Shown piece after piece: positions 11,438-15,530 of a stretch of DNA of 43,206 nt. The stretch's first letter is position 1. Every line of letters starts with the position of its first letter. The stretch comes from a virus. The stretch covers positions 1 through 43,206 of IMG/VR virus record IMGVR_UViG_3300032020_000018. One strand, 5' to 3'. A program made the position numbers and the translations under genes. Below the pieces are notes generated by a model that worked only from the letters and a program-made list of their open reading frames with translations, had not been told where the DNA came from and did not search any database.

Positions 11438-12043
11438 ATGGCCAATCCAGACAATCCTCAAACAGCCAAACGGCTCGCAGAAGGGAAGAGCCTCGGAGGA
11501 AGACCAACAGAATACAGACCGGAATACTGCGAGTCCATCATCAAGTTTATGACCTACGAGAACTATGCCGAGGAAATCAAGGTCGAACACGTCAATAGCA
11601 AAGGTGATAAGTGGGTCGAGGTCAAGCGCATCCCGGCAGAGTTGAAATTTATCGAAGACTGGCTTTGGGAGAACGGAATATCTGCTCAGGCGGCAAGTGA
11701 ATGGAAGCAACGTTATCCCGAGTTTGGCGAATCGTATGCGCGTGCGCGACAATTACAGACTGCCCATTTGCTGAAATGTGGCTTTGCTGGCCTATCAGAT
11801 CCGACCATGACAAAGTTCGCCGCGGTCAATCTGACTGACCTTAGAGACAAGACTGACCTGGGCATTACTGTCTCGGCAGATCTCACCGCCGACGAGTGCG
11901 CCCAGCTTCGTGCGCAGGCCAGACAGGTAGTATCCACGGTGGTCAGGCCGGCCCTGCCCCCTGGTGAGCCGTCTCAGGTGCCGGATGTGGCCTCGGATGT
12001 GGCAAAACAGTCAGAATCGGTCCCGCAGGAGGGCAGATCGTGA
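11438..12043 (+). CDS. Terminase small subunit
   Basis: This 201-residue protein should recognise phage DNA and load it on the large terminase. Residues 20-30 read GRPTEYRPEYC, the usual start of this family. The helix-turn-helix region (LWENGISAQAASEWKQRYPEF, then YARARQLQ) is followed by LLKCGFAGLSDPTMTKFAAVNL and a KTDLG strand typical of phage small terminases. The Pro/Ser-rich tail is probably disordered. The large terminase is 1.3 kb downstream, separated by a leftward recombinase gene. Confidence 0.85.
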   Translation: MANPDNPQTAKRLAEGKSLGGRPTEYRPEYCESIIKFMTYENYAEEIKVEHVNSKGDKWVEVKRIPAELKFIEDWLWENGISAQAASEWKQRYPEFGESYARARQLQTAHLLKCGFAGLSDPTMTKFAAVNLTDLRDKTDLGITVSADLTADECAQLRAQARQVVSTVVRPALPPGEPSQVPDVASDVAKQSESVPQEGRS

Positions 12044-12220: not shown

Positions 12221-12904
12221 TCAGAGTAGCCGATTGAGGATTCGTTCAACACTAGTAGCCGTCCACGGCTTGCCGGAGCGGGATTGCCTGCCCTCCCGAT
12301 TGAGTACCGTAGCGATTCGATGGTAGCCCATGCGTTTCTCGCCCTTGGGCTTGCGGTGCAGTTCGCGCATCCGCACGATGGTTTCCTGTTCACCTGGTCG
12401 CGCGCCAAACGGCTTGCGGCCCTCACAGCGGCCTTCCTGCTTACGCTTGCGGTCGCGTGCGGCGCGGAGCTTGAGTACAGTCACAGAGCGATCAAAGTGG
12501 GCAATGGCTGCCAGTACCTGTCGAATGAGTACGGCCGTAGGCTCATCATCGCCAGTGGTGAGATCGGAGCCTGCGTCTACCTCAAGTACTGTGCCACCCG
12601 CCGTGCGAAATCGGTCGAGGATGATCTCGCTAACCATTGCGTTGCGAGCGACACGGTCCGCACGTTCGACCAGGACGAGTTTGATGTTGCCCGATTCTAC
12701 AGCATCGAGTAGGGCTGCCAGTCCCTTGCGGCCTGCCAGTTCAGTCGTCCCACTCACGCCTTCGTCGCGGTACTCAGCGGCGATCTCGATGCCGTGGGCC
12801 TTGGCGTAGCGTTGGATGGACTCTCGCTGGCGGGGGAATCCATCCCCTTCAATTTGTCCCAGTCCCGAGACTCTGAGGTATGAGTACGCTTGTGTTTTTG
12901 CCAT
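12221..12904 (-). CDS. Serine recombinase (resolvase/integrase family)
   Basis: The start is ATG at 12904 (MAKTQAYSYLRVSG); the longer frame to 13030 has no site. The 227-residue protein has the catalytic Ser in YLRVSG (residue 12), DEGVSGT, and the arginine-rich VERADRVARNAMV of the active site. It ends with a helix-turn-helix (GYHRIATVLNREG then WTATSVERILNRLL). It is shorter than large serine integrases. It may integrate the phage or resolve dimers. TTGACA at 12975-12970 could be the -35, but the -10 is poor. It interrupts the terminase genes and has its own terminator. Confidence 0.88.
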   Translation of the reverse strand: MAKTQAYSYLRVSGLGQIEGDGFPRQRESIQRYAKAHGIEIAAEYRDEGVSGTTELAGRKGLAALLDAVESGNIKLVLVERADRVARNAMVSEIILDRFRTAGGTVLEVDAGSDLTTGDDEPTAVLIRQVLAAIAHFDRSVTVLKLRAARDRKRKQEGRCEGRKPFGARPGEQETIVRMRELHRKPKGEKRMGYHRIATVLNREGRQSRSGKPWTATSVERILNRLL

Positions 12905-13046
12905 AAGTGCCACTCTTTCACTGAGTTTACGTGATTGACTTACTCTTATTCTCCAGTAATAGTCAGGTTTGTCAAGCCCAATTCTGGGCGGGAATGCAGT
13001 TTTTCTGTGCAGGGTGCAGCCCCACCGCAAACCCGCAGGCTTGGCA

Positions 13047-13313: not shown

Positions 13314-15530
13314 ATGGCTCCAATAACTGACATAGTGCTGACCGACGCGCAGATACGCTACGCGGGGCGGAAGCTGCTGGAGTACCGGCCCCTGCCGGCG
13401 GCGGCGCAGTTCCATGCCTCGCTGGCCAAGAACCGGTGGTTTATCGGCGGCAATAGGTGCCTGGGCGGCGAGCAGGAAATCTATGATCCTGTAGCCGGCA
13501 AGTATCGGCGGGTGGACAGTATCAAAGGGCCGTGGCACGTCCTGGCGTGGGACGGGACGAAGTTGGTCACGTCTGAGGCGTCCGAGCCGTTCACGAAGCC
13601 TGCGCAGTGGATTCTTGATGTGGGTCTGTCAAGTGGAGAGCACATCGCTTGTTCTGGTACTCATCAAGTGTTAACCCTCGACGGCTATCAGCCACTTGGC
13701 GTAATGCGGTCAGGATGCGAGCTTTTCCGTCCGGTGTCCACTTTGGGCAGTGGCCAGAAAGTTCCTCATGTAGATGCTCACCGTTTGTTTGGTACACCGT
13801 CAGATTGTCCGGACGGTTACATTGCCGGCCCTTCCTCCCATGATGAACCACTTCGCCAGGCAATAGAGGGCGACCGAGCATCTTTTCTGCCACGAGGATA
13901 TGCTCGCACACGTACACGTTTCGTGGCTTACGCGCTCTCGGATGACCAGGGCGGTACACCAAAACATAGCCGTGTTTGTCGATTATCCGGCCTCCCTTCC
14001 AGTCAGGATGCCCCGTCCCACTTCGAGGGCCAGTTCTCTGGCACTGGATGCCGTGCTTCTTGCACACCTTCTGGATCAACTTTGCTGACACGCCCAACTG
14101 TTGACCGATCCAAGCTTGGGTCCCGCCCTCGTCAATCCACACCCGGATCTGTTCGACAGGGTAGTCCCAACATTTCAGCTTCTGCCCACGGTTACGAATC
14201 GGCAATCGACGTTCCATGTTCATGTTCCCCTATTCCCATATGTGGCACTATAGCGATAACCAGTCTGGAAGTCAAGAGAAAAGATGTTGTTTGGGATTTT
14301 GAAGTACCTGAATACCACAACTACCTTGCCGCCGGCGTCATTTCGCACAATTCAGGCAAGTCAGAGGCCAATATCGGTTGGGATTTATGCCGCTTCGCCC
14401 TCAACATTCATCCTGTCCGAGTGGCCCCGCCCAAGGCGATCATCTGGGCGGCCACCGACTCCTGGCCAATGGTCGGTAAGCTCTTGTGGGAAGAGAAGAT
14501 ACAGGCTTACATTCCCCCGGGCCGGATCAAGAAGATCATCTGGCACAACCAGGGGGCGGGCATACCCAACGAGGTCCGGCTGTCCAACGGGACCAAAATC
14601 GAGTTCAAGGCATATGAGCAGGGGAGAGACGCCTTCCAGGGCCGGGCAATTGACGCCTTCTACGGTGACGAGCAGTGCCCGTATGATTCGGAGGGCATCT
14701 GGCAGGAGATCCAGGCCCGGCTAATGGACCGCAACGGGTTCACGGCCCAATCCATGACTCCGATCCGGTTTCAGCCGTGGTTGGAGCAGCGGATTCGCAG
14801 CTTGCCGCCGACCGATGCGGTGTTCTACGCCGACTTGGAGGACAACCGCAAGAGCCGCGGCGGGCACGTGGACGACGCCGAGATCGACATGCTGATCGCG
14901 CAATGGCCGCCGGAGATCCAGGCAACGCGGGTCAAGGGCCGGTTTGCGGCGTTTCTGGGCGCCGTCTTCAAGACCTTCAGTCGTGAGGTTCATGTCTGTG
15001 CCCCGTTCAAGGTGCCCCCGGACTGGCCGAAGTGGCGCAGCATTGACTTCGGGTTCGCCAATCCGTTTGTCTGCCTCTGGTTGACCAGGGACCCCGACAA
15101 ACACTGGTACGTCTATGCCGAGCACTATCAGGCCCAGGAATCGATTGCCTTCCATGCCGAGCGGATCAAGGGTCTGAGTGGCAAGGAGCGGTATCGGTGT
15201 ACCTGGGCCGACCATGATGCCCAGGACCGCTACGAGCTGGAGAAGCAGGGTATCAAGACCGTGGCGGCGAAGAAGGATGTCCATGCGGGGATAGAGACCA
15301 TCCAGGCTTGCCTGAAGATTCAGCCTGACTGCCGGCCGAGGTTGCAGGTGTTCAATACTTGTCCGCACACGATTGAGGAAATTCAGGGTTATCGGTGGGC
15401 CGAGGGTGGCGAGAATAAGGACGCCAAGGACGAGCCCTTGAAGGTCCGGGACCACGCCGTGGATTGCGTACGCTACGGACTACTGGGTGCTGAGGGCGGC
15501 TACTACTTCACGGAAAGCGAGTTGAGTTGA
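13314..15530 (+). CDS. Terminase large subunit, interrupted by an intein
   Basis: The 738-residue precursor contains a 298-residue intein (residues 49-346). After splicing, the 440-residue terminase pumps DNA with ATP and cuts it. FIGGNR before the intein and SGKSEANIGWDL after it join to GGNRSGKS, the Walker A motif, so the host protein is inactive until the intein leaves. Walker B is FYGDEQ; the nuclease acids are in SIDFGFANPF, TWADHDAQDR and RDHAVDCVRY. The Ser after the intein (residue 347) supports splicing. The frame stays open through an antisense HNH gene in the intein. The next gene starts at its stop (TGATG). Confidence 0.92.
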   Translation: MAPITDIVLTDAQIRYAGRKLLEYRPLPAAAQFHASLAKNRWFIGGNRCLGGEQEIYDPVAGKYRRVDSIKGPWHVLAWDGTKLVTSEASEPFTKPAQWILDVGLSSGEHIACSGTHQVLTLDGYQPLGVMRSGCELFRPVSTLGSGQKVPHVDAHRLFGTPSDCPDGYIAGPSSHDEPLRQAIEGDRASFLPRGYARTRTRFVAYALSDDQGGTPKHSRVCRLSGLPSSQDAPSHFEGQFSGTGCRASCTPSGSTLLTRPTVDRSKLGSRPRQSTPGSVRQGSPNISASAHGYESAIDVPCSCSPIPICGTIAITSLEVKRKDVVWDFEVPEYHNYLAAGVISHNSGKSEANIGWDLCRFALNIHPVRVAPPKAIIWAATDSWPMVGKLLWEEKIQAYIPPGRIKKIIWHNQGAGIPNEVRLSNGTKIEFKAYEQGRDAFQGRAIDAFYGDEQCPYDSEGIWQEIQARLMDRNGFTAQSMTPIRFQPWLEQRIRSLPPTDAVFYADLEDNRKSRGGHVDDAEIDMLIAQWPPEIQATRVKGRFAAFLGAVFKTFSREVHVCAPFKVPPDWPKWRSIDFGFANPFVCLWLTRDPDKHWYVYAEHYQAQESIAFHAERIKGLSGKERYRCTWADHDAQDRYELEKQGIKTVAAKKDVHAGIETIQACLKIQPDCRPRLQVFNTCPHTIEEIQGYRWAEGGENKDAKDEPLKVRDHAVDCVRYGLLGAEGGYYFTESELS
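13591..14223 (-). CDS. HNH endonuclease, antisense inside the terminase intein
   Basis: This 210-residue protein has a helix-turn-helix N terminus (WIGQQLGVSAKLIQKVCKKH), then the HNH_3-type core: DWKGGR, KHGYVLVYRPGHP, CEHILVAEKMLGRPLLPGEV, VHHGRKGRQCNRPDNLTVY and a final GEH. The His/Asn set of the active site is present. It should cut intein-free terminase genes and so spread the intein. ATG 14223 is close to AGGGG; a second ATG at 14217 has better spacing. Its last 34 residues are antisense to intein block B and look unrelated to the family, so the gene may have extended to a chance stop. Confidence 0.85.
   Translation of the reverse strand: MNMERRLPIRNRGQKLKCWDYPVEQIRVWIDEGGTQAWIGQQLGVSAKLIQKVCKKHGIQCQRTGPRSGTGHPDWKGGRIIDKHGYVLVYRPGHPRARKPRNVYVCEHILVAEKMLGRPLLPGEVVHHGRKGRQCNRPDNLTVYQTNGEHLHEELSGHCPKWTPDGKARILTALRQVADSRRGLTLDEYQNKRCALHLTDPHQESTAQAS
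14247..14275 (-). promoter_or_regulatory. Promoter of the antisense HNH gene
   Basis: Read leftward, TTGACT (14275-14270), 17 bp, TATAGT (14252-14247): two hexamers with five of six consensus bases each at ideal spacing. The -10 is 24 nt from the ATG at 14223. The -35 overlaps the sense codons just before intein block F (EVKRKD), so this promoter is part of the intein coding sequence. Confidence 0.75.

Follow-up and report, generated by a model that had tools for sequence, protein, structure and literature searches.

An intein in viral terminase genes that probably carries its homing endonuclease as a separate gene on the opposite strand

Split inteins may have a free-standing endonuclease gene located between their two halves. 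The ShiLan elements lack a splicing domain; their HNH gene shares the strand of the host gene but not its frame, and the host gene stays open through the insert (PMC11855218). Antisense homing genes have been proven in group I introns, where both expression and cleavage were shown for I-DsqI in the Didymium intron L2066 (PMC9548176). The open-access papers searched held no precedent for an intein with its endonuclease on the antisense, i.e. opposite, strand, so the claim of the initial annotation that such an arrangement was undescribed holds for these papers; one 2025 preprint on actinobacteriophage inteins of non-canonical architecture may contain a related case.

The window, i.e. the whole stretch of DNA analyzed here, is a virus record of 43,206 bases in which the terminase large subunit is encoded by a 738-aa ORF at 13314-15530 (+). 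Its N-extein (13314..13457, +) ends in ...WFIGGNR, residues that are also present in 23 intein-less relatives, and is followed by a contiguous intein of 298 codons running from C1 to HN (13458..14351, +), which was identified by its motifs, TIGR01443, the family alignment, and the predicted fold. The intein ends with ...VISHN at 14351 and S+1 stands at 14352, splitting the Walker A motif as GGNR / SGKS; the C-extein (SGKS..., 14352..15530, +) contains the Terminase_6 ATPase and nuclease according to Pfam Terminase_6N/6C and PHROG terminase matches. The N-terminal splicing half with blocks A and B (13458..13745, +; block B His codon 13662-13664) is delimited by the alignment and a predicted pLDDT of about 97, and the C-terminal half with blocks F and G (14235..14351, +; D280 codon 14295-14297, HN 14346-14351) by TIGR01443, alignment, and model, likewise at a pLDDT of about 97. 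Between them the sense product has a linker, residues 97-242 (13746..14183, +), which is predicted to be disordered and was characterized by substitutions, codon shuffles, and the model. The opposite strand of the same DNA carries an ORF of 210 aa (13591..14223, -) for an HNH protein of the homing endonuclease type, with candidate ATG starts at 14223 and 14217, and its last approximately 24 codons overlap block B. The initial annotation had reported C1 at 13458, the terminal HN, S+1, and the GGNR / SGKS split, together with a full antisense HNH gene from 14223 to 13591 and the lack of an endonuclease in the central sense codons, and all of these were borne out, the last by a Pfam profile search giving no family match for the middle of the sense product and by its predicted disorder.

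Just upstream of the terminase gene a serine recombinase gene is found on the opposite strand (12221-13030, -; Pfam Resolvase 7.6e-25), and the unassigned ORF on its other side (11438-12043) could by position encode the small terminase subunit.

The antisense HNH protein was assigned by ORF, Pfam, PHROG, alignment, and structural model. Pfam HNH_3 is above the gathering cut-off in the window protein and matches 38 of the 38 aligned members, and PHROG HNH families match the window protein with values down to 1e-22. The protein consists of an N-terminal helix-turn-helix-like part followed by the HNH_3 domain, where the motif EVVHH ... N ... N ... H (13774..13845, -) contains the residues H125, H126, N134, N138, and H148 that are invariant in the alignment. 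The model has a mean pLDDT of 86. Since Foldseek against the PDB gave helix-turn-helix matches only and no confident match beyond these, the endonuclease assignment rests on the HNH_3 sequence matches; a PDB sequence search by the HNH profile gave nothing useful. By these matches the antisense product is a member of the HNH_3-type homing endonuclease family, and would be expected to cut the intein-less allele.

IMG/VR was searched with the window HNH protein, resulting in 30 loci, and with 15 aligned HNH proteins, which gave at least 511 relatives, 80 of them being retained; the same alignment yielded 80 loci from bacterial and archaeal genomes. Profile HMMs built for the N and C halves of the intein and for the HNH protein were used to classify the loci, and in 109 entries, one of which (L031) is the window again, the HNH gene lies antisense inside one uninterrupted intein ORF. 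Two cultured phages, Pectobacterium phage Ymer and Pseudoalteromonas phage PHS3, share the arrangement, and with these included there are 110 loci, corresponding to 106 distinct records when each of the four contigs found by both HNH scans is counted once. The proportions from these searches do not reflect prevalence, as the loci were retrieved via HNH or intein similarity. Among the classified loci there was no split arrangement with the intein halves on two ORFs, and no sense HNH flanked by both halves. The loci form 45 clusters at 80% HNH identity, and all of them use the same antisense phase, in which sense codon position 1 is opposite HNH position 1 and sense position 2 is opposite the HNH wobble position. 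The usual insertion site is the Walker A motif of terminases (GGNR/SGK), six clusters being inserted further along (GK/T), and a few have helicase hosts, either SNF2-like (L114, L115, L141) or strawberry-notch-like (L121). In Ymer the terminase-intein gene is annotated as a 754-aa "hypothetical protein", and in PHS3 as a split terminase plus an HNH gene; the Ymer paper annotates the terminase by synteny and the words HNH, endonuclease, and intron are absent from it (PMC11445585). In one terminase ORF (L002:2608-5877, complement), the intein carrying the antisense HNH seems to be accompanied by another intein-like insert close to the C terminus of the ORF (CFVAGTMVRTSCGQIP ... ILVAN).

HNH relatives were also seen out of frame outside the intein family. 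Eight loci from viral contigs and bacterial genomes (L022, L023, L024, L025, L147, L178, L186, L189) have a same-strand out-of-frame HNH in DNA methylase-like ORFs with no intein endings, and look like further ShiLan-type elements. A Nitrospira MAG (L167:1523-4489) has an HNH relative antisense in a DNA methylase ORF where no HN[STC] intein ending was seen, possibly an antisense ShiLan-like form. In the methylase ORF L172:820-3255 an intein-like insert was recognized by eye (CLSEDTEILTING ... FITGN/SGFPKS) with a same-strand HNH in another frame; the intein part of this ORF gave no Pfam match.

The explanation that we find highly probable is that of a mobile intein with its homing endonuclease as a separate antisense gene having a promoter of its own. 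According to this model the HNH gene was overprinted, in antisense orientation, on the loop that joins splicing blocks B and F. Translation would run straight through the terminase gene with the long sense linker remaining passive, after which the Hint domain would excise itself and rebuild the Walker A motif, while the HNH protein would be made independently from the opposite-strand promoter inside the intein. The protein would then recognize the Walker A site where a terminase gene lacks the intein and cut or nick it, and repair following the cut would copy the whole unit of intein and HNH gene across.

The comparison with related terminases bears on the proposed mobility. Of the closest terminases whose sequence covers the site (52-69% identity to that of the window), 23 of 23 have an empty GGNR/SGKS site; the terminases nearest to that of Ymer, from Klebsiella and Escherichia phages, were matched in two pieces, and the KW1E_UTAR terminase gene has the intein-less length. 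The intein N half as query retrieved 80 loci, of which 72 have the antisense HNH, seven are natural mini-inteins of 127-142 aa without HNH, and one is ended by the contig end, showing that the HNH part is dispensable; a sense HNH was found in 0 of these 80 intein relatives, so in none of them does a sense endonuclease occupy the corresponding place. A mini-intein (L233) and an intein with HNH (L107) are 86.6% identical at the nucleotide level outside the HNH segment. The gene of Acinetobacter phage vB_AbaM_ME3 annotated only as large terminase subunit (L196:2063-4351) has an apparent mini-intein of approximately 135 aa at the same Walker A site. Inteins can resemble each other more closely than do their host terminases; for the pair L073/L106 the inteins are 95.3% identical as compared to 76.0% for the C-exteins. 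HNH and intein distances are correlated (Mantel r.68; partial r.55 given the extein), more strongly than either is with the extein, and many members have the same partners in the HNH and intein trees. Horizontal transfer could also have taken place by recombination without HNH action.

An alternative is that a free-standing HNH gene took up residence in a mini-intein, which serves it as a safe harbor, and that it cuts another site (marker exclusion or intronless homing) and hitch-hikes with the intein without driving intein homing itself. Such a history is suggested by the 80 free relatives of the HNH gene outside inteins, including the out-of-frame HNH genes in methylases, but we consider it improbable, as the HNH gene and the intein are co-inherited beyond the effect of the extein, the same HNH family is found inside inteins of several host proteins, and HNH-bearing inteins are more alike than their own exteins.

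Whether the intein is still able to splice was judged from its conserved residues and predicted fold. C1, H69 of block B, D280 of block F, and N298 are invariant in the 38 aligned family members, and the residue at +1 is S, T, or C. The window protein scores 23.0 against TIGR01443 (intein C-terminus; cut-off 15.6) and 28.5 against Pfam Intein_splicing, which is under the cut-off of 35.8; 35 of the 38 aligned members reach E<=0.01 with the latter profile. The AlphaFold model of the intein, made from the 38-member alignment in which, as in all the structure work, the Ymer and PHS3 rows were left out, has pLDDT values of 92-98 for residues 1-90 and about 261-298, whereas residues 97-242 are nearly all below 50. 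The confident part resembles the Mtu RecA mini-intein with a TM of 0.82-0.86 by target length. The predicted fold is thus a mini-intein with a disordered linker at the position of the HNH gene, and motifs and fold together identify a Hint-type intein that would be expected to splice. The ShiLan elements without splicing domains (PMC11855218), a kind to which some of the HNH relatives found here belong, raise the alternative that splicing has been lost and that the element is an HNH gene plus an open frame through the terminase. This is very unlikely in view of the invariant catalytic residues and the S/T/C at +1, the insertion into the ATP-binding loop of the terminase, which requires restoration, and the fact that mini-inteins are kept.

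All 45 clusters have an uninterrupted sense frame opposite the HNH gene, with neither a stop nor a frameshift in any member, and 0 of 45 are open in either of the two remaining antisense phases; of the 80 free HNH relatives, 8 are open in the phase that corresponds to the sense frame, over a core that is shorter. When the HNH codons were shuffled synonymously a mean of 7.0 sense stops appeared and the probability of an open frame was about 0.001 per member, compared to no stops in the real members. In 92 pairs, which share members and are therefore not independent counts, but show a similar pattern in nearly every pair (L072 left out), the substitution fractions at sense codon positions 1/2/3 were.198/.155/.410 for the N-intein,.165/.364/.122 for the HNH core,.149/.117/.331 for the C-intein, and.181/.149/.385 for the extein. 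The fast position is therefore the sense wobble position in the splicing domains and the extein, and the HNH wobble position over the HNH gene, showing that constraint falls on the sense strand in the splicing domains and on the antisense strand in the middle, with the sense linker required only to be free of stops. Selection for a functional sense linker is ruled out, as sense position 3 is the slowest over the linker. It is clear from these sequence comparisons that the dual coding is real and that both reading frames are under selection. The claim of the initial annotation, made from a single locus, of a contiguous intein with an HNH gene nested inside it on the antisense strand holds for 106 distinct records, and the arrangement is a real form of mobile element that has apparently not been described before. 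GC-rich DNA often has long antisense ORFs, but that the HNH frame is such a mirror ORF and the intein middle a decayed sense endonuclease has next to no probability given the HNH_3 domain in every antisense protein of the alignment, the invariant motif residues, the substitutions at HNH wobble positions, and the predicted disorder of the sense linker, and a mirror-ORF artefact is ruled out by codon-position substitutions, synonymous shuffles, and HNH_3 matches.

Upstream of the HNH gene, within the intein coding sequence, the antisense strand contains a sigma70-like promoter, TTGACT-17-TATAGT (14247..14275, -), positioned 29 nt before the ATG at 14217 and identified by promoter score and a synonymous control; AGGGGAAC is found immediately upstream of the HNH ATG. 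Promoter scores of at least 10 occur in 62% of the 45 clusters as compared to 9% of antisense extein stretches, a control that ignores local coding. Synonymous recoding of the same intein codons gave a weaker but still significant signal, with p<0.05 for 15 of 45 members, a combined p=9e-11, and p=0.045 for the window promoter. In some members the distance from the -10 box to the start is 26-41 nt, and a strong Shine-Dalgarno sequence is present; in several others the -10 box is 6-9 nt before the ATG with no Shine-Dalgarno sequence, as expected for leaderless messages. We infer that the HNH gene has an antisense promoter of its own, which would be used for its expression. The promoter points into the terminase message, but a transcript acting mainly as antisense RNA to regulate the terminase gene, with HNH in a secondary role, is extremely unlikely because selection is seen on the HNH codons and not on the promoter alone.

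Collectively, it appears quite probable that the mobile inteins with separate antisense endonuclease genes constitute a widespread two-strand form, having a fixed codon phase and an internal promoter for leadered or leaderless messages, with expression and evolution of HNH independent of splicing, and having moved between terminases, two Walker A positions, and helicase genes. This adds a third way for inteins to carry an endonuclease, besides the in-frame fusion and the free-standing gene, and offers a clear natural case, represented by many diverged members, of dual protein coding in antisense. It also separates splicing from homing, so that each is open to testing alone, and the cultured phages make the arrangement testable at once. 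Gene callers hide the arrangement, as seen in the annotated records inspected (Ymer and PHS3).

We regard the intein with an antisense HNH gene as a form of mobile intein and not as a separate kind of element. With the canonical mobile inteins of the PI-SceI type (LAGLIDADG) it shares the Hint domain, the insertion into a conserved catalytic site, the location of the endonuclease between blocks B and F, and a homing cycle with empty sites and mini-inteins; in contrast to these, neither the window intein nor the 80 relatives retrieved with the N half have an in-frame endonuclease, which is instead a separate opposite-strand protein, and the sense product contributes only a passive linker. The independence of the endonuclease gene from the intein protein is shared with split inteins having a free-standing endonuclease gene, but here N and C halves are on one ORF at all loci, and the gene is nested antisense in the coding sequence of a contiguous intein. 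As in the ShiLan elements, the phage host gene is open through the insert and the real product is an HNH protein in another frame; but they lack a splicing domain and have the HNH gene on the strand of the host gene, whereas the window element has it antisense inside an intact intein. I-DsqI is likewise an antisense homing endonuclease gene of a self-splicing element, but it belongs to an RNA intron in nuclear rDNA with only one strand coding for protein, while here both strands do so, suggesting that homing genes of the antisense kind, known from RNA introns, arose in protein introns as well.
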